From Craspedostauros australis (Eukaryota > Bacillariophyta > Bacillariophyceae > Mastogloiales > Achnanthaceae): a DNA stretch of 64,000 nt. A program made the position numbers and the translations under genes. Positions 30,719 through 61,421 of this stretch are shown here, one piece after another. The notes below the pieces were generated by a model. It saw only the letters and a list, made by a program, of their open reading frames with translations. It was not told where the DNA came from and searched no databases. Each line of letters begins with the position of its first letter. The stretch's first letter is position 1. The stretch lies in the NCBI GenBank assembly GCA_026770025.1, contig JAMXDE010000006.1:434001-498000 (forward strand). Direction: 5' to 3'.

Positions 30719-31796
30719 TCCAGCAGCGGAGAATCGTGGCGATTGGCTAGCTGACTCAAGCTTGTTGGGTGGGTGCGTTGGTTGCCTCTCGGATGGCGGG
30801 TTGGTGGACTGTTTAATCAATCAATCTTAATCAATCTTCATCAATCTTAATCAATCAGCCAGTCAACCAGGCAATCAATCGATCAAACGATGGTCTCGAT
30901 TTGATGAATGAGAGAGAAGCGACCCTGCCTGTCACTGGCTTGGTCGATGCGGTGGCGTTGGAGGATGCGATTGTATGATGCTGCAGAGAGTGTGCAGAGT
31001 AATGGAGCATCTGTTGAGGCAGCTCCTGGATGTGGCTGTGGGCACTTCGTGGTTGTTCTGCGTTGGTGTGGTGACAACTCTCCTCTCTTGCCTCCTTTTG
31101 TTCTGTTGTGCACAGGAACCAAGTTCGGCTTTGCGCTTCCGTCGTTTCCTCTTTTTGTGATCGGTTGAAGCTGGAGTCGGAACTTGGCAGGGAAGCGAGT
31201 CTGAGCCATCCGAGGACGGGAGTAATAGTCGTACGGAGCAAACCCTTCTGCAGAGAGAGAGAGGGACCACGTGCAAGAGGCTGAATTCCTTTCCGGCTTC
31301 GGCTTTCCTCGTTGCAATTTTCGCTTGTGTTCTGATCTTCTGATTCTCAAACGCATCTGCGCGTACTCGTGTCGTGCACCCCACAAAAGAAGCCTCTTTC
31401 GTGAATCAACCACAGAGAGAGACAGAGAGGCAGAGAACGGGGCAAACACGTGAAACGGCGGAAGTAAAGGCAACGATGGGGAGAAAGGAGGCAAAAATAC
31501 AGTGAGAACCCACACACACAAAGTCAACCAAACACAAAAAAGATGGAGTTCCTGTTGTTGTCTCCCCCCTTGTTGTCGTTGACATCATCGCGTGTCATGA
31601 CATGATGTGTTGTCACTCGTTTCGCCAGGTAGCGCGAAGTTCCTCTGATTTGGTATCTTTGTTGAATCAATGGAGTACTGCATGAGCATAGTACCAACTA
31701 CAAGACAGGCCAGGATAGTGGTACTACTAATAAGGTATTACAAGGACTGCACGCAACAGTGCAACCAAGAGAAACAAGAATGAAAACACGTCTGAG

Positions 31797-31842
<46 letters not shown>

Positions 31843-32043
31843 ACAAGAGCAACAACGACAACAAGAGCAACAAGGGAAAGACACCAACAAACATCAAGGC
31901 GCTCTCACAAAACCTATGACCTGGCGCAGAGCATCTCTTGCGAAAGTAGGATCGAACTTCGAAACCGCAAGGAGGAAAGGCCGACACTCTCAAGCTACAA
32001 AGAGTGTAAGAGACAACTACACAACACAACTGGATTCATTATC
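30719..32043. promoter_or_regulatory. Divergent promoter region with simple repeats
   Basis: About 1.3 kb between the LRR gene (minus) and the first Arf fusion (plus). It contains AATCAATCTT-type tandem repeats at about 30818-30860 and a perfect (ACA)n tract at 31797-31840. The long minus-strand open frame here has no family features. In-frame codons without a stop extend upstream of 32044 to an ATG at 31780, but they translate to poly-Thr and low complexity. Confidence 0.4.
31797..31840 (+). repeat. (ACA)n microsatellite in leader
   Basis: About fourteen uninterrupted ACA triplets, within the likely 5' leader of the gene at 32044. Confidence 0.9.
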
Positions 32044-33642
32044 ATGGGTAACTCTTCGTCGTCGTCATCGCCGCCCTCACGGCCGCAGCTGCAATCTTCG
32101 ACAGAGGCATCGTCATCGGAAACACTGCAGCCGAAGCGATCTTCGGAATGGCCATGGCAGCGCTACCTCACGGGACGCAGCCCGCACGAGGCCAAGTTGC
32201 TCATCCACGGCCTGAATGGCGCAGGCAAAACCACTCTGCTGATGAAGTTCAAGCAACCATCGATGGAGATTGGCACAACAATTCCCACAATCGGATATAA
32301 CGTGGAGCAGCTCAACTACAACGGGTACACCCTGGATGCCTGGGACTTGGGTGGGAGATGCAAGATGCGGGCCTCGCACTATCACTTTTATCCACACACG
32401 GATGCCATGATCTTCGTCATCGATTCCGTCGATGGGGATTATCTCGAGGAGGCTACGTTTGAAATCAACAAAATCCTGGCGGAGGACGCGCTGGCGGAAC
32501 TGCCGATGTTGGTGTTTTGCAACAAGCAGGATCTGCCAAATGCTCTCTCCGTGGCCGAGATCGCCGCAGCAATCGGTATCAATGAGTCGGGCATGCACAA
32601 GGGCCACCCCATCATGATCACTGGTGGCTCGGCGCAAAAGGGAGTAGGAGTGACCGAAGCATTGATACAGCTGACGAACGTGATGAAGAAGTCGCAAATG
32701 AATCAGCGTTGGGAGATCGTCCAGAATATGGCGCAGCAGCAACGCACAGCATTGGTCGATGCTTCCGTTCCTGATCTGTTGGGATATCATCCTGTCACCA
32801 ACAACCTCGTCCTGCAACGGTTCAACATCATCAAGAAGCAGACAGAGTGCCCATTCGCACGAGTTGCCAAGCTCTGGGGCGCCAAACCGACACCACGCAG
32901 TCCCAACAGTGCGCCTGCCTCACTCGTAGAAAGCGCACAATCATCAGCGCCTGCGTTGGCAGAATTTGTGAAGCGCTCCAATGCTGGCAAGGATTTGGAC
33001 GGGTTCTGCGTGGAGCTAGACGATCCTTCGGCGCGAGAAGGTGGTCCGGATCAGTTGGGAAAGTGCGTGCGCATCTTCCTCACGGCCTTGGCCAAAAATG
33101 ATCCTTCTGACAAAGAGAACACCTGCATGAAGAATCCAAGGTTCATTGGACGAGCAGGATGGACCTTCCAGTTTTGCAAGGCCCGGTTCTTCCTCACAGT
33201 GTTTGCCCCATGCTACCCCGAAACATCTTCACGGTACGGGTTTGGATCATCCCACGCCTTCCTCCTCTTCCAGCCCGAAGAATCTTTCCTGCGACACGAT
33301 CTGCCACCGGATACGCCACACACCGCATGGGATCATCCCAAGACGGTGCGAGATCGAGCGCGGGTGAAGTACTCCCGGGCCGGTCGTAAGTACCACATTC
33401 CGGACTCGGTAAGCTATCCAGCCGCCGAGCATATTGTGAAGCCGTTGAATGAAGATGGAATGCAGGTGGTGAGGTGGTGGACGGATAACGAGAAAGACAA
33501 CGAGAGGGGAGATGCGGACACTTATGCTGAAAGCGAGGATGGCGCAACCGTCGCTTCGTCAGGAACCTCTCCATCTGATCGATCGACCATTATCGATGAC
33601 GGATCATTCAGCGATGGTGTTGGCGACGATGTCAGTGATTGA
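32044..33642 (+). CDS. Arf-like GTPase fused to YqcI/YcgG-like domain, copy 1
   Basis: 532 residues, single exon. MGNSSSS is a good N-myristoylation start, the lipid anchor used by Arf proteins, and decides the ATG. Arf motifs: P-loop GLNGAGKT (56-63), PTIGYNVE (81-88), DLGGR (101-105) and CNKQDLPNA (159-167). The catalytic glutamine of the Arf DVGGQ motif is replaced by Arg105. From about residue 245 a second domain begins: ECPFARVAKLWG, then GWTFQFCKARFFLTVFAPCY, SSHAFLLFQPEESF and VRDRARVKYSRAGRKYHIP. This order and pattern match the bacterial YqcI/YcgG family, to which the heme protein GntA belongs; my match is by memory, not search. The Asp/Ser-rich tail is disordered. A membrane-linked GTP-switched enzyme or binding protein is inference. 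Tandem paralogue at 34437. Confidence 0.82.
   Translation: MGNSSSSSSPPSRPQLQSSTEASSSETLQPKRSSEWPWQRYLTGRSPHEAKLLIHGLNGAGKTTLLMKFKQPSMEIGTTIPTIGYNVEQLNYNGYTLDAWDLGGRCKMRASHYHFYPHTDAMIFVIDSVDGDYLEEATFEINKILAEDALAELPMLVFCNKQDLPNALSVAEIAAAIGINESGMHKGHPIMITGGSAQKGVGVTEALIQLTNVMKKSQMNQRWEIVQNMAQQQRTALVDASVPDLLGYHPVTNNLVLQRFNIIKKQTECPFARVAKLWGAKPTPRSPNSAPASLVESAQSSAPALAEFVKRSNAGKDLDGFCVELDDPSAREGGPDQLGKCVRIFLTALAKNDPSDKENTCMKNPRFIGRAGWTFQFCKARFFLTVFAPCYPETSSRYGFGSSHAFLLFQPEESFLRHDLPPDTPHTAWDHPKTVRDRARVKYSRAGRKYHIPDSVSYPAAEHIVKPLNEDGMQVVRWWTDNEKDNERGDADTYAESEDGATVASSGTSPSDRSTIIDDGSFSDGVGDDVSD
32728..33503 (+). repeat. Near-identical paralogous tract, copy 1
   Basis: About 776 nt almost identical at base level to 35082-35854. 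It covers the end of the GTPase linker and the whole second domain. Flanking sequence on both sides is clearly diverged, so the boundary is abrupt. Confidence 0.85.
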
Positions 33643-34436
33643 CTGCTCCAGCATCACTGCGGTAGGAAGCAGGTGGTAGTTTGTTTGGACTAATACGATA
33701 GAATATCATGTGATATAAATTTGGTGCCTTTGGACTTGGTTGGCGTCGTTTCGACGAAGCCTTGAGTTAGAGACGATGATTTCGTTTGGATGAATTGGAG
33801 AACAATACACGAAGCAGGAGTGGTCACATGCTTCTCTACTATACTCTCCTCGTAGTTCAACATTGCCTGTGGGAGATACTTCCACGTGTCGATGTGATCG
33901 ACGACCGCTATTGTTTCCAAGAGAATGACCGTTCGCAATCATTGGATCCATACTGTCGGATCGTGTGTATGAAAGAATGAACGGCTTTCAATAAATAACG
34001 GACATACAATGTTCGATAAACGATTCCTATGTAGTGTGTCCGAGTGTCGTTTTCCAAGGATCCAGTCTGAGAACAGAAAATCGGCGCATGAAACACGAAT
34101 AAAACCACGTCTCAGAAAAGCAACAAACCACAAACACACCTCTGTTGTTTCTCATGAAGAACCTTGCACAATCATGGTCAAAGCCACGCCTCATCGCCAA
34201 GTTCGCCGATCTTGACACCAGCATCGATACCCTCGCACATCCACAATCTCTCTGGCGGATCGAGGGCAACTCAAAAAGAGAAAGGCAAGAGAGGTGGTCC
34301 ATTCGCCCAGTGGCTGTCGCTTCCAATCGAATTACTCTCATCGCACTCAAATCGCACTCATAATCCAACGTCAAACTCATCGCAAAGTCCCACCACAGTT
34401 GCGCCCATCATCATTATCATCATCATCATCATCATC
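33643..34436. promoter_or_regulatory. Spacer between tandem Arf fusion genes
   Basis: About 790 nt holding the 3' flank of copy 1 (with TTCAATAAATAACGG near 33988) and the promoter of copy 2. It ends in a run of ATC triplets (34408-34436) whose last unit runs into the ATG. The in-frame upstream codons are open but lack an ATG. Confidence 0.45.
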
Positions 34437-35921
34437 ATGGGTAACTCAGCGTCATCGCCATCGTCGGCATCATCCTTGGCATCTCCATTGTCGTCGTGGC
34501 ATCGATACTTCGCAAGGCACGAGAAAATCAAGGGCAAGATACTCATCCACGGCCTCAGTTGCTCAGGCAAGACCACTCTGCTGATCAAGCTCAAGGAACC
34601 ATCGGAGAAGATCAACTTCATGTATCCCACCGCGATGTTCAACCTCAAACAGCTCAACTACAACGGGTACGCTCTGAATGCATGGGACGTGGGCGGGAGA
34701 TGCAAGATGCGCGCATTGCACCGACACTTCTTCCACAGCACGGATGCGATGATCTTCGTCATCAATTCCGCCATCGATTCCGTCGGCGGTTTCTTCTTCC
34801 GTGAAGCCATCCATGAACTGAACTCCATCCTCGCCGAAGAGGACCTGGCAGGACTACCGATGCTGGTGTTTTGCAACAAGCAGGATCTGCCAAATGCTCT
34901 CTCCGTAGCCGAGATCGCAGCGAAGATCGGAATCGATGAATCCGGCATGTATATGGGCCACCCTATCATGGTCATGGGGGGCTCCGCACAGACGGGATCC
35001 GGTGTGACTGAAGCTTTGGCCAAGCTGACGAATATGGTAGATCAGACGCAGCAAACGCAACGTCATGCGTTAGCCAAGGCTATGGCGCAGCAACGCACAG
35101 CATTGGTGGATGCTTCCGTTCCTGATCTGTTGGGATATCATCCTGCCATCAACAATCTCGTCCTGCAACGGTTCAACATCATCAAGAAGCAGACAGAGTG
35201 CCCATTCGCACGAGTTGCCAAGCTCTGGGGCGCCAAACCGACACCACACAGTCCCAACAGTGCGCCTGCCTCACTCGTAGAAAGCGCACAATCATCAGCG
35301 CCTGCGTTGGCGGAATTCGTGAAGCGCTCCAATGCTGGCGAGGATTTGGACGGATTCTGCGTGGAGCTAGACGATCCTTCGGCGCGAGAAGGTGGTCCGG
35401 ATCAGTTGGGAAAGTGCGTGCGCATCTTCCTCACGGCCTTGGCCAAAAATGATCCTTCCGACAAGGAAAACACCTGCATGAAGAATTCAAGGTTCATTGG
35501 ACGAGCGGGATGGACCTTCCAGTTTTGCAAGGCCCGGTTCTTCCTCACAGTGTTTGCCCCATGCTACCCCGAAACATCTTCACGGTACGGGTTTGGATCA
35601 TCCCACGCCTTCCTCCTCTTCCAGCCCGAAGAGTCCTTCCTGCGACACGATCTGCCACCGGATACGCCACACACCACATGGGATCATCCCAAGACGGTGC
35701 GAGATCGAGCGCGGGTGAGGTACTCCCAGGCCGGTCGTAAGTACCACATTCCGGACTCGGTAAGCTATCCAGCCGCCGAGCATATTGTGAAGCCGTTGAA
35801 TGAAGATGGAATGCAGGTGGTGAGGTGGTGGACGGATAACGAGAAAGACAACGATGAAACAGATGGCGAGAGTGAAGGCGGCACGACAACCACTTCGTCA
35901 TCAACCGCCCCATCTGATTGA
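34437..35921 (+). CDS. Arf-like GTPase fused to YqcI/YcgG-like domain, copy 2
   Basis: 494 residues, single exon, the same architecture as the gene 800 nt upstream and the same MGNS start for myristoylation. The GTPase is more diverged: P-loop GLSCSGKT (39-46), switch I PTAMFNLKQ instead of PTIGYNVEQ, DVGGR with Arg88 where Arf has Gln, and an intact CNKQDLPNA. The second domain, from GYHPAINNLVLQ onward, is almost identical to copy 1 in protein and DNA. The C-terminal tail is shorter (ends STAPSD). Loss of the conserved switch I Ile-Gly suggests altered nucleotide-dependent switching; this is inference. The pair points to a local duplication with later sequence exchange. Confidence 0.82.
   Translation: MGNSASSPSSASSLASPLSSWHRYFARHEKIKGKILIHGLSCSGKTTLLIKLKEPSEKINFMYPTAMFNLKQLNYNGYALNAWDVGGRCKMRALHRHFFHSTDAMIFVINSAIDSVGGFFFREAIHELNSILAEEDLAGLPMLVFCNKQDLPNALSVAEIAAKIGIDESGMYMGHPIMVMGGSAQTGSGVTEALAKLTNMVDQTQQTQRHALAKAMAQQRTALVDASVPDLLGYHPAINNLVLQRFNIIKKQTECPFARVAKLWGAKPTPHSPNSAPASLVESAQSSAPALAEFVKRSNAGEDLDGFCVELDDPSAREGGPDQLGKCVRIFLTALAKNDPSDKENTCMKNSRFIGRAGWTFQFCKARFFLTVFAPCYPETSSRYGFGSSHAFLLFQPEESFLRHDLPPDTPHTTWDHPKTVRDRARVRYSQAGRKYHIPDSVSYPAAEHIVKPLNEDGMQVVRWWTDNEKDNDETDGESEGGTTTTSSSTAPSD
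35082..35854 (+). repeat. Near-identical paralogous tract, copy 2
   Basis: Counterpart of 32728-33503. Only scattered substitutions and one missing CAG triplet (near 35088) separate the two. Confidence 0.85.
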
Positions 35922-36548
35922 ATCTTCATCGTGGATGGAGAATTTTGGAGCGACAGTGTCAGCGACGTCGTTGGCGATGGCCATGACACTGGAGTATTGC
36001 TCGAGAGTCCGCCTACGGGCATGGCGGAAGAGACTGGATAAGGATGGATCAGAGAAGTCGAGTATGGCATAATAGTTCATTTTGTATTGTGTGGAGTAAA
36101 TATAATATCTGTATGGCAGGTTGCCGTTTGGCCATGGTCTCTACCATACTCGCAGGCGCACACCACATGCCGGTCGCACTCGTACTAGTCGGTCGTAGAG
36201 AGAGGCCAGAATGACAGAATTCGCGAAACATAGGAACGCGGATGCGTTGTGCCCAACGGAACAAACAACAACAACAACGACGACGACAACAAGAAAAAGA
36301 AAAAGAACGACAATGGAAATGGCCAAAACAGAACAGAACAGAACAAAACAAGCAACAGGACAAGGATCAGAACCTCCCACAAAGCAATCACCCAGGGTCC
36401 GCCAACGCCGCAGCATACCAGCGCGATCGAATACTCCAGAGCAACAACTATAATACGCTCGAACTGTTGGTGTCAACGCTCCACCAGTAATAGTACCAGT
36501 AATAGTACCAGTAATAGTACCAGTAACTGTACCTGCGCCAGCAATCAT
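35922..36548. promoter_or_regulatory. Intergenic region with A/C-rich leader and 12-bp tandem repeat
   Basis: About 630 nt. A 12-bp unit AGTAATAGTACC is repeated three times, with a degenerate fourth, at 36486-36532 just before the next start. CAACAA stretches precede it. No gene supported; the longer open frame starting upstream lacks an ATG. Confidence 0.5.
36486..36532 (+). repeat. 12-bp tandem repeat
   Basis: Three copies of AGTAATAGTACC plus a variant ending AACTGTACC, lying within 20 nt upstream of the ATG at 36549. Confidence 0.85.
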
Positions 36549-37787
36549 ATGACGGAAGGGATGGCCGAATACGAGGAATATCCACCACGCAAGGCAAGGC
36601 AACCGCAGCAACGGCGACGCACCAATCCTCGTCCAGCCGCAGCCGCAGCCACCAACAGCGGTGCGGGAGATCCTGGGGCACGGCCCAAGCCTCCCAACGC
36701 AGCCAAGAGGAGGGTTACTGCCGATGGGATCGCCAGAGTCAACGCGGAGGCGCTCCAGCTTCAGCTCAAGAGAAAGAAGCAGTCATCGACATGGTACCGC
36801 CCGCTCGGCAGCAGCATGGGTCCTGTCAAATGCGCCGCCTTCATCGTCGCCGACGAACTGCGGCAAGGCAACTGGCCTTCCAAGTACATGCAGGCCGACA
36901 TTGCGGACTCAGCCGAAAGGCAGGCCGAGCTGCGCAAGCTGCATCAGGAACACAGCGAGCACGCCGCCTCCAGCCTCGAGCATTTCGCTCTCAACGTCGT
37001 GTTCCCGCAGCTGCAGACCTGTCATGCCATCCCACCGACCTGGTCCATCAACCAACCGCCACGGGCATTCTACGCCACCTTGCTGGCGCTGCGGGAAGTC
37101 ATGGCGCAGAATGCCGTCAAGTTATTTGGACACGACTTCCTCCCGCACGAGCCGAGGAGGGGTGCCACAGACGCATCCTTGATGATGATGCGGGACGCGT
37201 TCGGCAAGCCAAAGAGGAAGAAACAGAAGAAGACCAAGGCGGCGGCGGTGGTAGCGGGAGCTGTAGCGGGGACGAATCAACCCGCGTCTGCGAATGTTGA
37301 CGGAAACGCAACCGACCCTCTCGATGCTTACGAAGACAAGCAGGTGGGGCATTTCCTGGCGCTCTCCTTTGCCACCTCCATCATCATCACCGCTGTGGAA
37401 TCGAATCTCCAAGCGTCGTCGGCGAAGACCATCGATCAGTTCCTCACTTTGGCCAAGGAGTACGACGAGGGAAATGATGAATTTGCGAACTGCTTGGAGA
37501 AACGGGACGGGCGATTTTGCGGTGTCCTGCCAAATGGCAGCCGCTTGAACCCGGAGGAGAACATCGCGGCAACCATATCGTACAATCGATCCTTGGAACA
37601 GCATCATCTGACGCAGCTCAAGCGGGCCCGGGCCCTCAAACTGCCACCCGCGAATCTCGTCGACCTTCCCACGCCCGATGCATGCCACATGGTCCTGCTC
37701 GAGAAGACAGACTTTGTCAGTGGCTCGCCGACTGCGAGGCTGATCAAGCTGCGAGACCAGGAGTACCTGAACGAGATCAAATCATAG
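36549..37787 (+). CDS. Hypothetical protein with Lys-rich insertion
   Basis: 412 residues from the first in-frame ATG (MTEGMAEYEEYPPRK). The N-terminal 60 residues are Gln/Arg/Pro/Ala-rich and disordered. A folded, Ala/Leu-rich helical core follows (MGPVKCAAFIVADELRQG, then NVVFPQLQTCHAIPPTW), interrupted near residues 215-240 by a basic KPKRKKQKKTK cluster that could be a nuclear localisation signal. The remainder (GHFLALSFATSIIITAVESN) is amphipathic rather than clearly membrane-spanning. I recognise no family and propose no function. Codon use is ordinary for this window and the frame is unbroken. Confidence 0.65.
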   Translation: MTEGMAEYEEYPPRKARQPQQRRRTNPRPAAAAATNSGAGDPGARPKPPNAAKRRVTADGIARVNAEALQLQLKRKKQSSTWYRPLGSSMGPVKCAAFIVADELRQGNWPSKYMQADIADSAERQAELRKLHQEHSEHAASSLEHFALNVVFPQLQTCHAIPPTWSINQPPRAFYATLLALREVMAQNAVKLFGHDFLPHEPRRGATDASLMMMRDAFGKPKRKKQKKTKAAAVVAGAVAGTNQPASANVDGNATDPLDAYEDKQVGHFLALSFATSIIITAVESNLQASSAKTIDQFLTLAKEYDEGNDEFANCLEKRDGRFCGVLPNGSRLNPEENIAATISYNRSLEQHHLTQLKRARALKLPPANLVDLPTPDACHMVLLEKTDFVSGSPTARLIKLRDQEYLNEIKS

Positions 37788-38331
37788 CCTGCGTTGGCGT
37801 ACCATACCATCGCGACACTTGCAACTGCAACTGCACCTTGATGCTGTCATGCTGCCAGGCAAAGGTAGTTCTGAAGGATATTCTGGTAAATGGGAGTAGA
37901 GTAATCTATTTGTGCGATAGTTCATTGGCGGAATTGCCCATGTGCTCTGCTCAGTTACAATGCACAGCTCTACCCTGATGTTGTAGCGTTGGCTCTTTCG
38001 CAAGAATCGTGATTCGTTATTCACGCATATGACATGAGTGACGTCAGTTGTGGTACTCGTCCCCATCCCAGCACGAAGACATGCGCGCACTTCTTGCTGG
38101 ATCTTCACATTCGAATCGGGAGGCGAGTACTCACCGACGAACAAAGATCTGCACCCGCGCAAACGTCAACCGTCCATGGCCGACGCCAATCCCTGTCACC
38201 ACCATCGTCATCGCCGCCGACATCGCACCTGATTCCATCACACAACAAAACAACAGCTACAACACAATTCATCACATTCTTGAAACAAACAAGCCAACAA
38301 ACAAACAAAAATAACCAAAGAAATAGCAACC
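37788..38331. promoter_or_regulatory. Intergenic region, FabD promoter and leader
   Basis: About 540 nt. GGGAGTAGAGTAATC at 37891-37905 is a gene-end element. The last 90 nt before 38332 are a strongly A/C-rich leader (AACAAACAAGCCAACAAACA). Confidence 0.4.
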
Positions 38332-39861
38332 ATGATGTTCCGCCTCGTCCTCACCTCGACGGTCCTTTCGACAGTCACCCGCTTCTCGAGCGCGTTCGCT
38401 CCGACCACCCGCAGGTTCGGACGCTCCGCTTCCGTTCTCGCCGCCAGCGACTCTGACTTTGATGACTTCACCTCCAAGGTGTCTTTCATGTTCCCCGGAC
38501 AGGGCGCACAGTTCGTGGGCATGTGCGGAGACGTCTGCAAGGAGGTCCCAGCCGCCAAGGCCCTCTTCGACGAGGCCAGCGAAATTCTGGGCTACGACCT
38601 CCTCGAGCTCTGCATGGAGGGACCCAAGGAGAAGCTCGATTCCACCGTCATCTCCCAGCCAGCCATCTTCGTCGCCAGCATGGCCGCCGTGGAGAAGCTC
38701 AAGCAGGAATCCGGACAGGAGGCTATCGATGCGGCCACCTGCGCCATGGGTCTCAGCTTGGGAGAATACTCCGCCCTGTGCTTTGCCGATGCCATCTCCT
38801 TTGCCGACGGCGTCAAGATCACCAAGGCCCGTGGTGAAGCCATGCAGGCCGCCTCCGATGCGCAGGATACCGGCATGGTCTCCGTCATTGGCCTGTCCAG
38901 CGACAAGGTCAAGGACCTCTGTGAGATGGCCACTGAAAAGACCGGGGAGAACATCCAGATCGCCAACTACCTGTGCAAGGGCAACTACGCCGTCAGCGGT
39001 ACTAGCACCGCCTGCGAATCCGTCGCCGCCCTGGCCAAGCCAGAGTTCAAGGCCCGCATGACCGTCAAGCTTGCCGTCGCAGGTGCATTCCACACAGGTG
39101 AGTATTTAGGGCGACGGTGTCATGTTTCATCCATACGCGCTGTTGTATCTACATTAGTACGATGCATGGGATGTGGATTGAAGTGAGATTGAGGTTGCAC
39201 CACAATCGAATGCAGGAATCGATTGGTTTGACTGTGTCGCACGCCATCAACCTGCATCATGAGTTGCAGTTTGATGACATCACTGGGTCTTGATAGGTGA
39301 CGGCGTTTGAAGCGCGAGCAAATGCTGTACACGTACTCTGTTGGTCTGGTGTTGCTCCACTAGTCCACTCTAATCTTTCCCCCTTTCCATACTTGCGATC
39401 AATGATGATGATGCTGACAACTGTTCGTCCACTTCTTCAATACACACACACACACACACAAACACACGTGCGCTCCACAATTTACTCGACACCGCACGCA
39501 TCATACATCACCAATCGTATCATTTCCGTGATTCATTTTCTTTGTCGTCGTCACCTCTCGCATCGCAGAATTCATGCAGCCCGCTGTCGCTGGTCTCGAG
39601 GAGGTCCTTGCCGGAGTCGAGGTCAAGAAGCCACGAATCCCCGTCATCAGCAACGTCGATGCCAAGCCGCATTCCGACCCAGATACAATCAAGCAGCTCC
39701 TTGCCACTCAGGTCACATCGCCGGTGCTTTGGGAGAACACAATGGACAGCATGCTCGGAAACGGATTCGAGGAGGCCTACGAACTGGGACCAGGCAAGGT
39801 CACCGCAGGAATCCTGAAGCGATTCGACAAGCAGGCCAAGTGCACCAACATCGATGTGTAA
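38332..39861 (+). CDS. fabD: Malonyl-CoA:acyl-carrier-protein transacylase, plastid (FabD)
   Basis: Exons 38332-39097 and 39569-39861, phase 1, 471-nt intron (GTGAGT...CGCAG), 352 residues. The N-terminus is a bipartite plastid presequence: a hydrophobic signal, then SSAFAPTTRRFGRSA (19-33), with the heterokont cleavage-site motif. The FabD fold shows FPGQGAQ (54-60), catalytic Ser142 in GLSLGEYSAL, and His254 in GAFHTEFM, a triad residue created exactly across the splice junction. It loads malonyl groups onto ACP to start type II fatty-acid synthesis in the plastid. The intron has 203 AG-free nt before the acceptor and a CTAAT at 39370-39374 on its upstream edge. Confidence 0.97.
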
Positions 39862-46669: not shown

Positions 46670-48508
46670 CTAGGTTCCGAAGGAGGCAAAGAAGTCGTCC
46701 GAATTCAGAGACTCTTTTGACATCTTCCGAGCTGGAACACCGCCGCCAGCGCTGCTTCCTCCGAGGCTGAGATTGCCAGACGATGGAGCAGAACGTGGTT
46801 GGGAGGAGGTGGAGGAAGTGAGCTGCATCCCCTTGACCGGCTGCGGCGTCGGCATGCCGAAATTACCGGATGATGGCGCGGGAGTCGGTCTGGACTGTGG
46901 CATGCTGGAAGCACCACCACCACCACCACCGCCATACGTCGATCCAGCAGACGAGGCGGAACCCATGCCACCACCGCCGAACTTGGCCGCCATCCTGGCC
47001 TTTGCCTCCTCGCGGAGTCGGGTCTGCCTCATGACGTACTGCTCGTCGGTCTCGCCCGTGAGGCGTTCCATGCCGTTGCGATCCTCACCTGGCATGCCTG
47101 GCGCCTCCTGGAGCTGCGATGCGCCGCTGACAGGGGCGCTGTGCGATCGTTGCTGGTTCATGCCGCCGCCGCCCATGCCTTGGTTCATCGATGGTTGCTG
47201 GAACGAATTGCCGATGTTGGGTTGCGGGTTGCCAGAGCCGAAGCCGCCATACTTGGACGTGGTTGGGCGGCTGGTGGCAATCTCGCGTTGCAACGCGGAC
47301 AGACCATCGTCTTCATCCGGGCTGGTGACGGCGGATGCAACGTTCTGCACGCCCGTGCTGAGGCTGTTCCAAAAGCTGCCACCGACCTTGGTGACGGTGC
47401 TGCCGAGATTGTTGATCTTATTCGCCGTATTCGGATCCTGCACGAAGGAACTAGCGGTGGTCGCAGCCGTGCCGGCCAAGCTGCCGAGCGAACCGAGGGC
47501 GGATCCAAACCCAGAGACCAGGCCATCGACGTCAAGCCCCCCTCTTCCGCCACCGTATCCGCCGTTTGGGTTGTAGTTAGGATCGCTTCCGATGCCCTGC
47601 ATACTGCCTCTGTTGCTACCGACGCCTCCCATGGAACCGCCGTTGCCGAATTTGGACGCCATCCTCGCCCTGGCCTCCTCTCTCAACCGGGTCTGCCTTG
47701 CAACGTACTGCTGCTCCGATTCGCCAGGTAATCTCTCCATGCCGTTCGGATCTCTCGAGCCGCCGCCGTTGCTTCCCATGCCTCCCATCGGTTGGTTGAA
47801 CGAGGCCGGGGCAGACCGTGGTTTCTTCGGTGCGAGCTTGGTTGGCTCTGGCCGTCCTTCCACCCTGGCCTTGAGCACCTCTTTGTACAGTTGGGCTGCG
47901 TCACTTTCGTACTTTTGCTTGATGGGAGTCCTGGCATCGATACCCCTTTGTTTGAGGTAGGCGTTGCACTTGTCGTTGCCGCCGTTCTTCATGAGCGTCA
48001 GCTGCTTGTCGGACCATGAATCCATGGCGATCGATCGGACGAACGAGATGTGCACGCCCAACGATCTACAAATCGAACGTATTATATGGAGCAAGGTGGA
48101 TTAGAGTAGAGTTCATAGTATTGGGGGTTATTACGGTGAAAAAGAAAACAAACAGCGGATGGATGAGTGAATGGTGCATGATGCATAACCATGCGGCAAC
48201 ATGGGCGCATGAATGTAGTGGAATGCTCTTGAGAAGTATGGAGCCGATCGCAAGGGAAGAGCTCTTGGCAGCAAAAGTAGTCAAGGACTGCTTGCAGCAT
48301 GCATAAAGTACCATGCGATACTGCAAGCCCGCAACCATACCAGCAAGTCAACTAGCACTCACCTGTGTACACCGCTGCATTCAAGGCAAAAGACGTTGCC
48401 GAAGCTCACGCTTGCCCATTGCGGATTCTTCATCCCGCAATCGCAGCATTGATTGTTGCCAGGCAACGCCTTGACGACGGCCTGGTCTTTGGGTGTCATT
48501 TGCACCAT
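46670..48508 (-). CDS. ArfGAP1-type Arf GTPase-activating protein
   Basis: Exon 1 48508-48363 and exon 2 48065-46670, phase 2, 297-nt intron (GTGAGT...TTGTAG), 513 residues. The junction completes SGVHRSLGVHISFVRSIAMD. The ArfGAP zinc finger has Cys21, Cys24, Cys41 and Cys44 (QCCDCGMKNPQW, FCLECSG) and the catalytic arginine finger Arg49. The domain ends IKQKYESDAAQLYKEVL. The tail is Gly/Ser/Pro-rich and contains a motif twice: NGMERLPGESEQQYVARQTR and NGMERLTGETDEQYVMRQTR, each followed by LREEA-ARMA-KFG. ArfGAP1 turns off Arf1 on COPI vesicles; the tail usually senses curvature or binds coat. The repeated motif is not one I can name. Confidence 0.93.
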
Positions 48509-49817: not shown

Positions 49818-52800
49818 CTAATAGCCGGTGTACGTCTTCCTTGTCTGCCTTCGGAGATTCTTCCGCGTGATCTTGCAGATGCAGTGGCTGATCACCAACC
49901 TCCCTTGATCGGTCTCATCCGTGGCAGGCAGTCGGACGCCCTCCTTCGCCAGCTGGCACGCCGGGTTGCAGCACATGAACACTGTTCCGTCCACATCGCC
50001 GGACTGCTGCAGCCTGGTGTACTTGTAGATATAGATGTCCCTTTGGTTGCCGGAGAACTGGTTCCACTTCACTGTGTCGCAGGCCTTGCCGAGCAGGATG
50101 CGGTCCACCTCGTAGAAGGAAGCGTCGTTGCTCTCGCTCAGACCGTGCTTCTTGCGTGTTTTGTTGGCCTCCGTTCGGGTGGGTCCCAGGCTGATGGGAT
50201 GCAAGCTGACAAGGATCGTCCCAGGCTTCATCAGCGCAAACAAACCTCCCACGAAGTCATCCAAAAAGTACTTGTCGCCGCCCTTGGCAGACCTCTCCGC
50301 GAACACTCCGTTGAAATTGTTCACGTAGGCCTTCGTGACGCCAGTTGTCAGGAATTCTCGATGGAATCGATCCTCCAACCGCCCATGGCGCAAGTGCACG
50401 GATCCGATCATGCGTTTCCTCCCGTCGTTGATGTTGTCTTCGTGCTGAAGGATCAGATTGTCACGGAACACCTCCGCCACCGACTGGCGTCCAAACACAA
50501 CCTCGATACCCCGTGATTCGCATCCCATTGTTAGCGCGGCCTGCAGGCATGTGTTACCGATTCCGTGCCCAATGTCCAAAAACACGTCATCGTTGTTCAA
50601 GCACATGATCTTTTGCATCAGTCGCTGTGGAGCAAGTTGATTTTTGGGTGGATGGGTGGATAGATGAATTCGGGAAATGCAAGCGCAGACACAAATGACA
50701 TTGACGATAGTACGAGTACAGACAGTGGTATTGAACAAAGAAGGTGGCAAAATCGAATGAGATGTGGCAGAGGGCACGCAAGGAGATGCGAATGTATGCT
50801 TGGGTGAGCGACACCTTCTTCGGTCATGCAGGAAGCACAAAATCATGATGATCATCATCGTCGTCTTCATGCCATGCTTTACAAATGTGATTCTTACCTT
50901 CATTGCTCTCGGCAACAGCCTGCCGTACTGCGCCTTCAGCTGCCCGTTCGAATCCTCCGGTGCAATCTTGCTGTTGGCACCCCTAACGCGTCTTGTGCTC
51001 TCGATCTCCTCAGTTCCTTCACCGCAATAGTGTTCGCATGTCTTCCACATGTTCAAAAACTCCTTGTGCGTGTAGGGCCGTTCCTCGTCATCCGAGTCGT
51101 CGTCTTCGTCTTCGTAACAGTATCGCGTGTCGTCGCCCGTTGCGCTATCGTACTGATCGTGTCTTTGCTCAGAATCGGAGGATATGTAATCATCCAACGT
51201 TTCCGACTGTGCGCCGGTGGCGGGGGTGTCTGGATTCTCCGCGGCGAATGCTAGCTCGTAAACGGCGGCCTGCTGACTCTCTCCCAAGTTTTCATGAAGG
51301 TGGCAGAAACAGCCTTCCGATGCGTTGAACGTGCATTGCTTGCCCTTGCGTGTAATGGCCATGCATCGAATTTGCGAATTCGGTCCCACCTTTCTCTGTT
51401 TAACCATGATCGACCCCGTCTTGGCACTTTTCTTGCCACCAGTCTTGCCGTTGGTGCCGCTGTTGCTGGACGCTGCAGTCCCTCTGCTCGTCGTGGACAC
51501 CTTGCGTGGAGGGTTGCTGCTACGGAGGCTGTTGGCCGGCGGAGCGGCTTTCGATGTCTTTGACGCCGCTTGCGATGGTCTAGCGGCGTTCTGTCGGGCC
51601 AACCGAATGGCAGGGTTCAACAAACCTCTGTGCCGATAGCAGTAGATCCCATTCCGTGCAGCGTTGGAGCACAGAGTTCCATGCTGTCCAATCGCGAGAC
51701 ATTTGCGTTGACCCAATTTGCCTGCGAACCATCGGTCATCCTCCTCTCTCTTTTCATCGTTGGCTTTGCTCTCATCCTTGTCTCCATCTTCATCTCTAGT
51801 TTTTCCTTTGCTCTTTCCCTTTGCTCTTGCTTTGCCTTCTTCCCTGGCCGCGACCTTCGCTTTGCCTCCTCCGCTGGCTCCGAATTTCGCTTTCTTTCCA
51901 TTCATGACTTTCTTGCCCTTCGTGGTAGCAGTGTTAGTCTTGGTGTTTGAAGTAGCAGTAGCAGTAGCAGATGCCGAAGTCGGAGAAGACTTCGCGGCAA
52001 CTTTGCTTTGCTGTCGTGTTTTCGTCTTGTTTGTCGGTGTCACAGCCGGTGCGGGTGAAGCTGGTGCTTTCCGTTGGCGTTTCCTCGTCTGCACGCTGGG
52101 AGCGGCCTTGCGTGTAGCCGCTGACCTCTTGCCCATGTCACGTATCGACGGCTGCTTTCGTCGGACCATGCGCGCACTCTTGGGCAGTGCCGAGTTGCTT
52201 TGGTTTTTTATTCTTTTTGTGGTGTTTCGCGTTGTGCTACTGGCGCGGGTACGTGAGTTGGCATTGATTGCACGTGATTGCGATTGCGAAGTGGTACTGG
52301 AGCGCGCCGTGGGCCTGGTCTTCTCCACGATCCTCTTTCCGCGAGTTGTAGGTGCTGTGCTCGTTCCGCTGTTGGATGATGTGGGCGAAGGCGTGGACGA
52401 CACCATAACAACCGTGTTAGTCTCCATAGTTTCTGCATCTTCGCTGAGATGATCGTCTTCATCGTGATCGACGATGCTCTCGGTTTCGTCTGACTTCATT
52501 GAGTCTGTTTCGTTGAGAACGATGTCATTCGCCGTGTTGCCCGTGTCTTCAGTCGCGTCGTCGTCGTCGTCCTCGATCTCCAAAACAATTGGCTCCTGTG
52601 AATCGTTTCGGGTGGTGCTTCTACCAGTGCTTCTCCGATCTGGAGTTGTGGTACCTCCAGTGACGACGCCATCAGTTTCAATGTGGCGGGACGACCGAGT
52701 AACCAGCACCACACAGTCATCATCGCTATCGCTGGAGTCTATCATGGCCTGGTTGACAACAGAGCCCAAAGACTTCATGACGGAACCGACAGGCGCGACC

Positions 52801-53063
52801 ACGGAGTCTATCCATCTACGAAGCGTCGGATCTTGTCCATTTGTTGCCGTTGCCGTTGCTGTTGGCGTTGATGTTGCTGCTGCTACAGTAGAGGTAGAGG
52901 AAGCAGCAACGGCAGCCGATGGTGCCGTTGACACAGCTGCCACTGCTGCTGTGGTTGGCGGCGTCGGGATCGGCAACGAAGTCGATGGTGCCGAATAAGG
53001 TTGCTGTGGTCCGGCGGCTGTGCTCCTTCGTTTCTGCAAGTACCTCCCCAATGTGCGAGCCAT
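49818..53063 (-). CDS. DOT1-type histone H3-K79 methyltransferase with Cys/His repeats
   Basis: Exon 1 53063-50898 and exon 2 50624-49818. The 273-nt intron (GTAAGA...CCACAG) happens to be open in frame, but it is removed because it breaks the domain and carries a 172-nt AG-free tail. The product has 990 residues. Residues 1-430 are disordered Ser/Thr/Lys-rich. Two copies of a Cys-Cys-Cys-His motif follow: CLAIGQHGTLCSNAARNG-YCYRH (about 454-478) and CMAITRKGKQCTFNASEG-CFCHLH (566-590), probably zinc-binding. The DOT1 core has DDVFLDIGHGIGNTCLQAAL for S-adenosylmethionine and AYVNNFNGVF. DOT1 methylates Lys79 in the histone H3 core. A Cys-rich end (CCNPAC, HCICK) may form another zinc site. 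Confidence 0.85.
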   Translation of the reverse strand: MARTLGRYLQKRRSTAAGPQQPYSAPSTSLPIPTPPTTAAVAAVSTAPSAAVAASSTSTVAAATSTPTATATATNGQDPTLRRWIDSVVAPVGSVMKSLGSVVNQAMIDSSDSDDDCVVLVTRSSRHIETDGVVTGGTTTPDRRSTGRSTTRNDSQEPIVLEIEDDDDDATEDTGNTANDIVLNETDSMKSDETESIVDHDEDDHLSEDAETMETNTVVMVSSTPSPTSSNSGTSTAPTTRGKRIVEKTRPTARSSTTSQSQSRAINANSRTRASSTTRNTTKRIKNQSNSALPKSARMVRRKQPSIRDMGKRSAATRKAAPSVQTRKRQRKAPASPAPAVTPTNKTKTRQQSKVAAKSSPTSASATATATSNTKTNTATTKGKKVMNGKKAKFGASGGGKAKVAAREEGKARAKGKSKGKTRDEDGDKDESKANDEKREEDDRWFAGKLGQRKCLAIGQHGTLCSNAARNGIYCYRHRGLLNPAIRLARQNAARPSQAASKTSKAAPPANSLRSSNPPRKVSTTSRGTAASSNSGTNGKTGGKKSAKTGSIMVKQRKVGPNSQIRCMAITRKGKQCTFNASEGCFCHLHENLGESQQAAVYELAFAAENPDTPATGAQSETLDDYISSDSEQRHDQYDSATGDDTRYCYEDEDDDSDDEERPYTHKEFLNMWKTCEHYCGEGTEEIESTRRVRGANSKIAPEDSNGQLKAQYGRLLPRAMKVRITFVKHGMKTTMMIIMILCFLHDRRRCRSPKHTFASPCVPSATSHSILPPSLFNTTVCTRTIVNVICVCACISRIHLSTHPPKNQLAPQRLMQKIMCLNNDDVFLDIGHGIGNTCLQAALTMGCESRGIEVVFGRQSVAEVFRDNLILQHEDNINDGRKRMIGSVHLRHGRLEDRFHREFLTTGVTKAYVNNFNGVFAERSAKGGDKYFLDDFVGGLFALMKPGTILVSLHPISLGPTRTEANKTRKKHGLSESNDASFYEVDRILLGKACDTVKWNQFSGNQRDIYIYKYTRLQQSGDVDGTVFMCCNPACQLAKEGVRLPATDETDQGRLVISHCICKITRKNLRRQTRKTYTGY

Positions 53064-53627
53064 GTTGACAGCAAATCTTCCTGGGCCTGCTGTCTTCTTC
53101 AGGTAATGTCTATCGCTTCTTGGTGCCGGTCGCTGCTGTCGTGTGTTGGGGGCATTCACGCACGCACACACTCACATACGCACTCACACACTCTGACTCT
53201 TGCGCTCTCTCTTGTCCTTGCTCTTGTTGTGTTGTCGCACAGAGAGGGTACTCGTCCTCGTGCTCGTACTCGTGCTCGTATTATTTTTTGGCGCCGTGAG
53301 GTGCTTTGGCAGGCGTAGCTCGTCGTTAGTCCAAGAGAGTCTGTTCCCACAATGTCCTTCTTTGTGGTGGGTGGTGCACGTGCGGTGGCGTGGACTTTGT
53401 GTGCACTGTTGGGAGTGACCGTCCCACGACCAACGCTTGGCCTCTGCGCTACTACTATGTAATCGAGCTCTTTTGCAGCCGCTCCGCTCTCTCTTGTTTG
53501 CAGTGTTTGTTTTGTGCGTGGGTGTTTTGTGCGTTGGATCTCTGTGGTTGCTGAGTCGTCACAAGAAGCAAGGTTCTTGCTCTCTCTGTTTGGTCGACAC
53601 GACATAGAGGACGTCGAGGCGAAACCA

Positions 53628-54718: not shown

Positions 54719-56812
54719 TCACTCCCAGCAATGTCGACGATCAACATCCACAGCACCGTGGCAGGGGGGAACGGTTGTTCGGTCACCCTCACTTTGGGGT
54801 GCCCCAACGTTCTCCTCAGCTTGAGATGCGTTCGAAGTAGTCTCAGCATAGTGAGAGCTCCTGCTGTAATCACAAATTGCGGCTGCAACCACCGCAAAAC
54901 CATGGATGTATGTATTGCGCGTGTAACTCGGGAGCTCTGTTGATCGAGCATCTTTGTTCGAAGTCGATCTATTCCAGTCTTCAGGGCCCATCTGGAAGCC
55001 GGTGGCGCCAATCTCTCCATTGGCAAAAAAGCCACCGATGCAGCTCCGTTCGACCGATGACGACAGCGACAGCGGTAGCGACGATGATACTGCGTGGTTC
55101 TTGGAATTTGTGCCGTCTTCTTCAGTTGCATTTGAATCCAACGTGTGCTTCGCTGGTAACATGCCGGCAATGCTGTCATGATCCACATTCGCCACGCCAA
55201 ATAACGAAGTTCCTCTGGCAACTGATGAGATTTGGAGGATGCCCATGATGGAACCAGCATTCGCCTGACTGTCATGCATCATGCGCTGAACCTTGGCACG
55301 CTGGAACATCAGATGCACATCCTCTTTGGCGACGCTCTGGTTTCTGGCATGGAACTGCACCGAATCGCCGAGCTTGAAGTCGCCAGCAATCAAGAAAGAC
55401 CCAGAATAGGGACGGTATCCCGTCACCTGCCGGACGAGAACATCCGCATCATCGGTGATGTTGGAGTTCGAATGATTATCGCTGGCGCTGCCGCTGCTGG
55501 CATTGCTGCCACGAACGCTTTTGCTTCCATCATTATCAGTGGGATCGTCGGCAGTCACATCATCGTTGCCCACGTCACCATCTCGCTTCAGTATTCCACA
55601 AAGCATGCCAAAGTCACGAATTTCGTTGCGATCTTCATCGGAGGCGCACTCCGCCATGACCTTCTCCAGTTGATCCAGGGCCGGCCTGTTGTTCAGTTCC
55701 AGAATGGCGTTGCCACGGATGGACGTGATGCTGTATACCCCGCCCAACGCCCGGCTACCCTGCTGTGCCAACACCGTTTGGAGGCCGATCGTGCCACCCA
55801 GCCGCACACCAATGAGGGAGCCAGGTGTGAGCAGCTGACCACCAACTGCCAGTGTCGGTCTCGATCTGTTCTGCAAACGCGCAGAAATGCCGCCGGTGAC
55901 GATGGAGTCTGTTTCATCAAGCACCTGCAAAGTTTGGCTCAGTTTGCTGCAGTACGGATCCGAGAAGACCATGAAAGAATCCGGTCGAATCATTGAGTTT
56001 TCCACATCTGGCATTGGCGACATTGGCGGTGTTGGTTCTGATTTCGACGTTGACGATTGCTCTTCGGACGCGGTGATTCTTGAATGTGATTGCATGTTGA
56101 GTCTATCCTTCCAGTCATGCGCATCGCTAGATACCGTGAATGTTTCGATATTGGCCCCGTTCGGCAGCATCCCCATGAACAGCGACATCGATGGCCTGTT
56201 CGAATCGTCGTACTCATGCCCATCCCCGACGACACCTTCCGTGATCATTGCAACCAGTGTCGTCTTGCAATTGTGATTGCCGTTGCGATTCGACTTGTCG
56301 AGCTGTTGCGATGCCGCTTTCACAATCTGCTCAAAATGTTGTGTGTGAGACGGACTCACAAAGAGAAAGGCCAAATGTTGACTGGAATCTTGATTCCCTC
56401 GCTTCTTCTCTCCCTCGTCGTCGCTTGGTGGTGCTGATTTGTGCTGTTGTAGTACTTTGTCAAGCGCATGCTGCCAGTCTGCATCCTGCGATGTTGTGGA
56501 TTGGAACGCCGCCTGTAGCACTGTCTCTCGATGTCGCCAGTATCCAACATGATGGCCATGCCATCTGTGACGAATGCTGGTCCTATCGCTGGATTCCTGA
56601 TCTGAGAAACGATAGCGTTGGCCGTTGATGGATGAGGGTGGCTTGAATGGTGGTCGATTGGTCGAGGAGAAAGCCACTGCTGATCGGCATGCATGATGGA
56701 AGATGCACAATGCCGTCAAGATCTGAAGGGCAAAGTCGCGTTTCCTCTTCCCGGTTGGAGCAAGATGGTTCTGCAGCCGCAACGGCGTGCTCATTCCGGA
56801 GGATAATCCCAT
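54719..56812 (-). CDS. FIST-domain protein with plastid-type N-terminus
   Basis: Start chosen at 56812 (GCCATGG context); in-frame ATGs also exist at 56794 and 57064, but the upstream stretch reads as pyrimidine-rich leader. About 697 residues. The first 60 contain KRKRDFALQILTALCIFHHA followed by SAVAFSST, resembling a signal with an A-F plastid cleavage motif. The body fits the FIST N and C domains: MITEGVVGDG, then TGGISARLQN, VTGYRPYSGSFLIAGDFKLG, and near the end GGFFANGEIGATGFQ and YIHGFAVVAAA. FIST domains are proposed sensors of small ligands, perhaps amino acids, and in eukaryotes occur with F-boxes; no F-box is visible. An Asp/Ser/Asn-rich insertion sits between the domains. Function unknown. 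Confidence 0.75.
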   Translation of the reverse strand: MGLSSGMSTPLRLQNHLAPTGKRKRDFALQILTALCIFHHACRSAVAFSSTNRPPFKPPSSINGQRYRFSDQESSDRTSIRHRWHGHHVGYWRHRETVLQAAFQSTTSQDADWQHALDKVLQQHKSAPPSDDEGEKKRGNQDSSQHLAFLFVSPSHTQHFEQIVKAASQQLDKSNRNGNHNCKTTLVAMITEGVVGDGHEYDDSNRPSMSLFMGMLPNGANIETFTVSSDAHDWKDRLNMQSHSRITASEEQSSTSKSEPTPPMSPMPDVENSMIRPDSFMVFSDPYCSKLSQTLQVLDETDSIVTGGISARLQNRSRPTLAVGGQLLTPGSLIGVRLGGTIGLQTVLAQQGSRALGGVYSITSIRGNAILELNNRPALDQLEKVMAECASDEDRNEIRDFGMLCGILKRDGDVGNDDVTADDPTDNDGSKSVRGSNASSGSASDNHSNSNITDDADVLVRQVTGYRPYSGSFLIAGDFKLGDSVQFHARNQSVAKEDVHLMFQRAKVQRMMHDSQANAGSIMGILQISSVARGTSLFGVANVDHDSIAGMLPAKHTLDSNATEEDGTNSKNHAVSSSLPLSLSSSVERSCIGGFFANGEIGATGFQMGPEDWNRSTSNKDARSTELPSYTRNTYIHGFAVVAAAICDYSRSSHYAETTSNASQAEENVGAPQSEGDRTTVPPCHGAVDVDRRHCWE

Positions 56813-57544
56813 GGCCAGCTTTGGTGTTTGTGCAGCTGCTGTACCATACATGCACACAATTGAAAATGAACATGAGCCCAGAAATGAAGACTCGCGCAAC
56901 TTGGAGAGGTGTGGAGACAGAAGGAAAGAAGGAGAGAAAGATACAGATGGCCAACGTCCACAATGGAGCGACAGCGCTTCCACCAACTCGCATCCATCGC
57001 CCCATCCGCCTGTCAACCTGTCGACGTCACAAGAAGAACCGAAATTGATGGTGTTGGTTGGCATGTTGTGGTGAGAACACAGAACTTCCGAAGAATCCCA
57101 GAAATTTGAGAATTGTTCCGTCTTGACATCTGTTCCATGTCTCGGGCATGTCTCATCAACTTCAATTCACTTGTTTTCAGTCATGTATCGTGACTGTGAC
57201 GTACGAATGGCAGACGCAAATGGTATCCTTTTCAGTCAAACACAACCACCCACACAACACAACAAACACAAATCGGATGTGGTTGCGGACATCCAAAAGG
57301 CGAGACAGAGCAGAGAGAGGGAGAGGGGGAGAGACAGCAACATTACATGTCATACGACCTGTTATACCATACAAACCACAACACGTATCATCTGATAATC
57401 GATACATGCTATTTCCAGGGATGTGATACAACATAACACTTATAATAGCTCGTAGTTTGCTTCCTCACTTGTTGCCCGTACACATTGGAAAGGGACCATC
57501 ACTTCGCCGCCTCACAAAGACATCGAACATTGCCGAGCACAACC
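56813..57544. promoter_or_regulatory. Divergent promoter region
   Basis: About 730 nt between the FIST gene and the NUFIP1-like gene. It may include the leader or a missed 5' exon of the FIST gene (open frame to 57064). Contains AACACAACCACCCACACAAC at 57239-57258. Confidence 0.35.
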
Positions 57545-61039: not shown

Positions 61040-61421
61040 GACACGGGAATCTGACGCAACACAAGGGGGTGGGGAGAAAACTGCTCTTATATTAATATTG
61101 CGATCTTGGCGTGCTAAGCAACATCGTACGGGAGTCTTTTATGATGCTGGAAATAGCATTGCATTAAAGCTGCCGCCCACTTGTTCCTTGTCTAGCTCGT
61201 ACTGGCAGCTATTTCCAATGCGACTCTACTTTCGATACTGTTAGACTGGTGCGCGCGCTTTCTGTGTGTGATGTGTCCACCTCATTTTTTCGTGTGTTTT
61301 TCTTTGGTTGATTGGGTGGTCGTGAGTCGGAAAAGGACTCCAAGATGGCGCCAACTTGCTGTCGCCGTCAAACTTCCACTCAGGAGAGATTCCTTGTGAT
61401 CAACGAGCCATCTTTTATGGT
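61040..61421. promoter_or_regulatory. Spacer and methyltransferase leader
   Basis: About 380 nt. It contains an ATG at 61345 in strong context (CCAAGATGGCG) that reads 25 codons to a GTATGA; this is either an upstream ORF or a first exon of the next gene. Confidence 0.4.

Follow-up and report, generated by a model that had tools for sequence, protein, structure and literature searches.

The presence of two adjacent genes in the diatom Craspedostauros australis, each joining an Arf-type GTPase to a second domain that resembles the bacterial YqcI/YcgG family, raises the question of what kind of protein such a pairing would make. Most Arf proteins consist of a single domain and work as membrane switches; few carry additional domains. 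The genes, here called A and B, lie on the forward strand of a 64 kb stretch of DNA (the window; contig JAMXDE010000006.1, positions 434,001–498,000, assembly GCA_026770025.1), and the scanned assembly comprises 74.8 Mb in 90 contigs. Gene A (32044–33642, +) is a single exon of 532 residues that opens at ATG 32044, and gene B (34437–35921, +) is a single exon of 494 residues that opens at ATG 34437. Each is one uninterrupted open frame from ATG to stop, and both proteins follow the same layout: an MGNS start, a serine-rich stretch of ∼30–45 residues, an Arf GTPase domain, a linker, and the second domain. As judged from these frames, the fusion of an Arf part and a second domain in one frame, twice, is real. 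An earlier note on this DNA had proposed the tandem fusion; its coordinates were exact, and both frames proved single and continuous. With an even measure of confidence, each gene may be taken to encode one lipid-anchored Arf GTPase carrying, at the membrane, a C-terminal diverged YqcI/YcgG-type module with a putative heme function.

The methionine of MGNS is the first ATG within the open frame of gene B. Gene A has two further in-frame ATGs upstream (31780 and 31840), before and inside an ACA/CAA-rich simple repeat, and the MGNS start was preferred because it is supported by the paralogue B. The repeat (31796–31848) lies ∼190 bases upstream of gene A; a second one of the same kind (36259–36300) stands at the start of the open frame 36234–37784, and the two match each other over 35–42 bases. 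The N-termini, MGNSSSS and MGNSASS, agree with the consensus for N-myristoylation, a predicted modification; as a fit of sequence, the myristoylation-type start ascribed earlier to the two proteins is present in both.

The Arf identity of the N-terminal half is, on its sequence, certain. The GTPase domain of A (32182–32691, +; residues 47–216) scores 150.7 bits against PF00025 (E 4e-44, matched residues 47–212) and that of B (34524–35039, +; residues 30–201) scores 135.5 bits (E 2e-39, matched residues 30–200), both above the cut-off of 22.3. The P-loop, WD-GG, and NKQD are kept in both copies, so that the Arf assignment of the earlier note is upheld by score and by motif alike. The aromatic interswitch residues of A/B are Y/F, W, and F, at positions that we take to correspond to Arf F51, W66, and Y81. 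The closest solved structures to the GTPase are Arf1 chains (E 2.3e-35), and identity to the nearest Arf frame in the diatom's own genome is 41% for A and 38% for B. In the GTPase of B, switch I is also altered (YPTAMFNL), and four residues are inserted.

The position of the residue that follows WD-GG, which we take to be that of the catalytic glutamine of Arf, sets the two GTPases apart. It is occupied by Arg105 in A (WDLGGR; 32356–32358, +) and by Arg88 in B (WDVGGR; 34698–34700, +). A glutamine after the two glycines is usual in active Arfs; membership of the family does not require it. Across the 17 Arf/Ras-type GTPase frames that were aligned, out of 25 such places found in the genome, the site holds glutamine in 14, histidine in one frame, which reads as Sar1-like, and arginine in two, the arginine being confined to the fusion genes. 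The intrinsic GTPase activity of ARFs is described as undetectable, with dependence on GTPase-activating proteins (GAPs), in the available text of PMC12554972. Taken with this reliance on GAPs, the replacement of glutamine by arginine suggests that the GTP state of both fusion GTPases would be long-lived.

The second domain occupies 32776–33483 (+; about residues 245–480) in A and 35127–35834 (+; about residues 231–466) in B, and PF08892 matches residues 296–416 and 282–402, respectively. The motifs from which a YqcI/YcgG resemblance had been read (ECPFARV, W-F-F-F, FQPE-SF, and VR-R-R-Y) are all present. To compare the domain with its putative relatives, family alignments were drawn first from 11 of 12 plasmid loci and later from 20 prokaryotic proteins together with AglA (residues 19–249); 53 plasmid records matched. 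Against the profile of 11 relatives, the A domain scored 17.9 bits; none of 2000 composition shuffles exceeded 5.4 bits, and the reversed sequence scored −1.1 bits. Against the profile of 20 proteins and AglA, A scored 24.3 and B 21.9 bits, the best of 5000 shuffles (3086 of which got any score) reaching 12.9. Well-conserved family columns were identical at 15 of 38 positions in A and 14 of 38 in B, with a maximum of 8 among 2000 shuffles, an easy control in that hmmalign leaves a large part of each shuffle unaligned. Profile comparison by hhalign with the larger family gave a score of 37.2 for A (E 1.2e-4, for a single comparison) and 35.1 for B; the reversed sequence scored 17.1, and none of 100 shuffles exceeded 22.4. 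Since profile, column, and hhalign scores exceed those of the shuffled or reversed controls, the core of the second domain is concluded to be homologous to YqcI/YcgG. The resemblance proposed in the earlier note thus stands above shuffled controls, though under the PF08892 cut-off.

Further indications come from individual residues. The prokaryotic YqcI/YcgG profile, when searched against the PDB, finds AglA (9ub3 and others). In the available text on this protein (PMC12866846), the heme iron is ligated by Cys44, the propionates are bound by Arg166, Lys196, and Arg200, and the substrate is contacted by Phe152, Arg179, Phe182, Gln177, Gln228, and loop L2. Four MAFFT settings agree in placing Cys269 of A (32848–32850, +) opposite C44 of AglA, and likewise F271 opposite F46, D353 opposite D125, F383 opposite F152, R397 opposite R166, Q410 opposite Q177, F415 opposite F182, and Y450 opposite Y229. 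For B, where one MAFFT setting was run, Cys255 (35199–35201, +) lies opposite C44, and the equivalents of F152, R166, Q177, and F182 are the same. D125, F152, P158, and R166, which are invariant in 21 sequences, appear in A as D353, F383, P389, and R397. The region of K196 and R200 is basic in A (VRDRARVKY), although its register is uncertain: R200 can fall on R436, R440, or K442, and K196 on P432, R436, or R438. Within the hmmalign coverage, which is AglA 78–200 only, 15 of 24 well-conserved core columns agree in A. From this pattern, heme binding by the second domain is plausible, and the heme pocket may have been retained even as the bacterial substrate gate was lost.

The comparison of the two copies adds a different kind of evidence. 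A tract at 32728–33502 (+) in A and its counterpart at 35082–35853 (+) in B are homogenised, with 19 of 772 aligned bases differing inside and 212 of 698 outside. A two-breakpoint model gains 243 in twice the log-likelihood difference (2dlnL), with breakpoints that were optimised and uncalibrated against a null. The tract coincides in extent with the second domain (residues 229–487 of A), which is 97.5% identical in DNA between A and B. Rates of nonsynonymous (dN) and synonymous (dS) change between the copies are 0.24/0.75 in the GTPase, 0.014/0.065 in the second domain (residues 230–480), and 0.25/0.74 in the tail, so that dN/dS is <1 in all three; the 29-codon linker, at 0.27/0.30, is close to neutral. 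Coding gaps between A and B are all multiples of three (12; 33, 18, 3, 12, and a terminal 60). B ends ∼20 residues before A, with both domains intact in both copies; it has the shorter tail, since the last residues of A align beyond the TGA stop of B, behind which lies an acidic stretch resembling the tail of A. By its sequence, the tract is the product of gene conversion, or of a recent swap of the module, while the GTPases diverged. It fits, without proving, an arrangement in which two regulators serve one effector module. The exchange of glutamine for arginine, the homogenised tract over the second domain, and the shorter tail of B all go beyond what the earlier note had described.

A mechanism can be proposed in four steps, in falling order of confidence. 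N-myristoylation and GTP loading would place the protein on a membrane. There, the GTPase would stay GTP-bound for long periods and serve chiefly as an anchor, not as a fast switch, GAP-driven hydrolysis being proposed to be weak because the catalytic glutamine is an arginine. The second domain would still bind heme, via Cys269 in A and Cys255 in B. Finally, it would serve at the membrane either in redox or oxygenase chemistry or in sensing heme or a gas; because the gating residues and loop are not kept, its substrate is proposed to differ from the arginine derivatives on which the bacterial enzymes act. The two copies would bring the same module to two sites under different regulation. The most specific form of this proposal, a membrane-tethered eukaryotic thiolate-heme oxygenase or heme sensor with the YqcI/YcgG fold, positioned or controlled in its activity by a GTP-held Arf covalently attached to it, is at present unlikely. 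If true, it would mean that P450-like chemistry is brought to membranes by a GTPase anchor and not by a transmembrane helix, and that duplication lets one enzyme module serve two differently regulated GTPases. More broadly, a diatom fusion of this kind would carry the recently solved heme fold of YqcI/YcgG into a eukaryotic protein and offer a natural test of how much drift its active site tolerates.

A number of observations weigh against a heme-binding YqcI/YcgG module, and the alternative that survives them best, possible though held with distinctly less confidence than the reading above, is that the second domain keeps the fold yet no longer holds heme or catalyses a reaction, and is now a binding or scaffold module on an Arf-type anchor. 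The family-invariant W23 and P43 are replaced by Tyr and Glu in A, R179 by E412, and Q228 by K449; the family Q-Y pair (AglA Q228-Y229, kept in all 20 of the sequences that are not gapped at this site) is K449-Y450 in A and is thus not kept. Nine of the 24 core columns differ, including W115 (R343), G148 (K379), and R179, and loop L2 is shorter in A by ∼15–21 residues, depending on register, so that little of the gating loop remains. Neither the cysteine nor the C-terminal motif falls within the Pfam match or the profile alignment, and in both copies the cysteine aligned to the heme ligand sits in T-E-C-P-F, without the proline that precedes it in the family [FY]-P-C. When both ends of the domain were shuffled, the C44 column received a cysteine in 244 of 1000 cases, whereas the fuller motifs C-x-F and C-x-F-[AG] arose there in 19 and 10; a first control had placed a cysteine there in 44 of 200 shuffles. 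A tyrosine fell on Y229 in 301 of the 1000 cases, a proline on P244 in 707, and both in 210. By these frequencies, the cysteine by itself, and the C-terminal tyrosine and proline, are within chance. A scaffold would, however, have no need of C-x-F-A or of the equivalents of F152, R166, Q177, and F182, all of which are kept, and the module has been homogenised between the copies with a dN/dS <1.

A more radical alternative is that the second domain is unrelated and lineage specific, its match to YqcI/YcgG reflecting the convergence of a few motifs. The PF08892 scores, 25.3 bits for A (E 1.6e-5) and 23.5 bits for B (E 5.4e-5), lie under the curated cut-off of 27, as do those of the genome scan (26.1 and 24.7 bits), so that of the two Pfam profiles with which the earlier note had proposed to check the proteins, PF00025 is matched above its threshold and PF08892 below it. 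The hhalign probabilities are modest (55% for A and 43% for B with the larger family, and 21% with the 11-sequence alignment). Sequence identity to the 11 prokaryotic proteins compared is 14%–22%; it amounts to 17% for each of three labelled GntA and 14%–22% for the eight others, which does not favor the link to GntA that had been drawn earlier. AlphaFold models built on two-sequence alignments have a mean predicted local distance difference test (pLDDT) score of 39.9 for the second domain and 29.7 at full length, both too low to bear on the sandwich fold of the family, and a PDB search with the second domain as a single sequence gave chance-level matches only. Set against this are the Pfam E value itself, the far lower scores of shuffled and reversed controls, and the matching residues carried at functional positions, and convergence is accordingly regarded as improbable, more so than the oxygenase or sensor proposed above. 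The claim of a full second domain, nonetheless, was too strong: the homologous core stands, whereas the score is below the cut-off, and residues invariant in the family have been lost along with the greater part of the gate loop. As the curated score and the invariant motif both failed, the domain is filed as YqcI/YcgG-like and not as a member; it is likely a diverged YqcI/YcgG-like domain. That the two parts are separate mRNAs, or the frames an annotation accident without a product, can be set aside as very improbable, as the diverged tandem copies share an uninterrupted junction, gaps in multiples of three, and a dN/dS <1.

Searches for relatives of the fusion were largely negative. The second domain was not found elsewhere in the assembly, either in the PF08892 scan (E ≤0.001) or in a further scan (E ≤1). 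The full fusion protein matches nine places in the genome, of which the seven other than A and B share the GTPase part only. The gene content of the window is eukaryotic. A viral or phage origin was considered and rejected, no related stretch being found in viral contigs or phages with either the fusion or prokaryotic YqcI queries. A recent bacterial transfer was likewise rejected, as a plasmid protein search and two scans of prokaryotic genome contigs, which are pattern based and have only close relatives within reach, returned no close relative; the sole plasmid match, a glycosyltransferase record at E 0.7, is due to chance. These prokaryotic and viral negatives are weak because the genome contigs gave nothing for a genuine YqcI pair either, although PF08892, as a control, detected the family in Bacillus subtilis and Haloferax volcanii. 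No Arf-YqcI/YcgG fusion is described in the literature searched, as judged by titles and the starts of abstracts, which bears out the novelty claimed earlier within that scope. A role of the second domain in nitric oxide production through arginine hydroxylation was also dropped, because nitric oxide synthase genes have reportedly been found in diatoms and the arginine-contacting residues are only partly kept.

Other features of the window and genome are recorded here in their own right. Downstream of the fusion genes, the frame 38284–39183 (+) matches PF00698, an acyl transferase domain, at E 1e-16. At 46673–48100 (−), ∼11 kb from the fusion genes, a frame with a glycine-rich C-terminal part matches ArfGAP in part (PF01412, E 5.2e-14, profile positions 42–112 of 117); no link to the fusion genes is argued. 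Two separate frames with DOT1-type histone methyltransferase matches, 49821–53171 (−) and 61326–62390 (+), are ∼8 kb apart. Both FIST domains, FIST_N (E 1.9e-9) and FIST_C (E 1.6e-7), occur in the frame 54722–57166 (−); this sensor pair is known chiefly from bacteria. The silicon-transporter family PF03842 is found at 88 places in the assembly, 32 of them near full length (≥483 of 513 positions). These 32 are distributed across many contigs, and 4 of them have in-frame stops; the family has apparently undergone a large expansion in this silicifying alga.

How, then, does the fusion compare with known systems? It resembles Arf1-type proteins in its PF00025 score well above the cut-off, its P-loop, NKQD, and interswitch aromatics, and its MG start. 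It differs from them in the arginine at the catalytic glutamine site, in the altered switch I and insert of B, and in a serine-rich N-terminus, where the usual Arf has an amphipathic helix. On the side of the second domain, the known YqcI/YcgG members, named as DcsA, GntA, ChmN, AmbT, and Mhr24 alongside AglA, are presented in the available text as guanidine N-hydroxylases of natural-product biosynthesis (PMC12866846). The fusion shares with AglA and its family an alignable core (AglA 78–200), the equivalents of F152, R166, Q177, and F182, and a putative equivalent of C44, but it falls under the Pfam cut-off, has lost W23, P43, R179, Q228, and most of L2, and has a GTPase attached.

The nearest precedents for the architecture come from a eukaryote-wide survey, in the available text of which 75 multidomain members are counted among >2,000 ARF proteins (PMC8358228); its main text contains neither "YqcI" nor "heme". 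Arl17, by the description given there, has a GTPase thought to be derived from Arf1 and a C-terminal extra domain also found in bacteria, and in this respect resembles the fusion; the extra domain, however, is ∼100 residues long, occurs in one to three copies, and has no known homology, and by that description Arl17 is set apart. The survey did not find it in stramenopiles (PMC8358228). Closer in kind is a protein of Emiliania huxleyi in which an Arf is joined to a 2-oxoglutarate (2OG)-Fe(II) oxygenase domain, and for which possible regulation of the enzyme by the GTPase is suggested (PMC8358228). As far as that account goes, both cases come from an alga and link an Arf GTPase to a domain of iron-oxygenase type, putative in the diatom; the haptophyte domain belongs to another superfamily and uses non-heme iron, and the Arf is C-terminal there and N-terminal here. 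If the proposed function were true, the diatom genes would be another algal pairing of this kind, after the haptophyte one, and would suggest that Arf anchors are a means by which algae bring redox enzymes to membranes. The fusion is an addition to the known class of multidomain ARF proteins.

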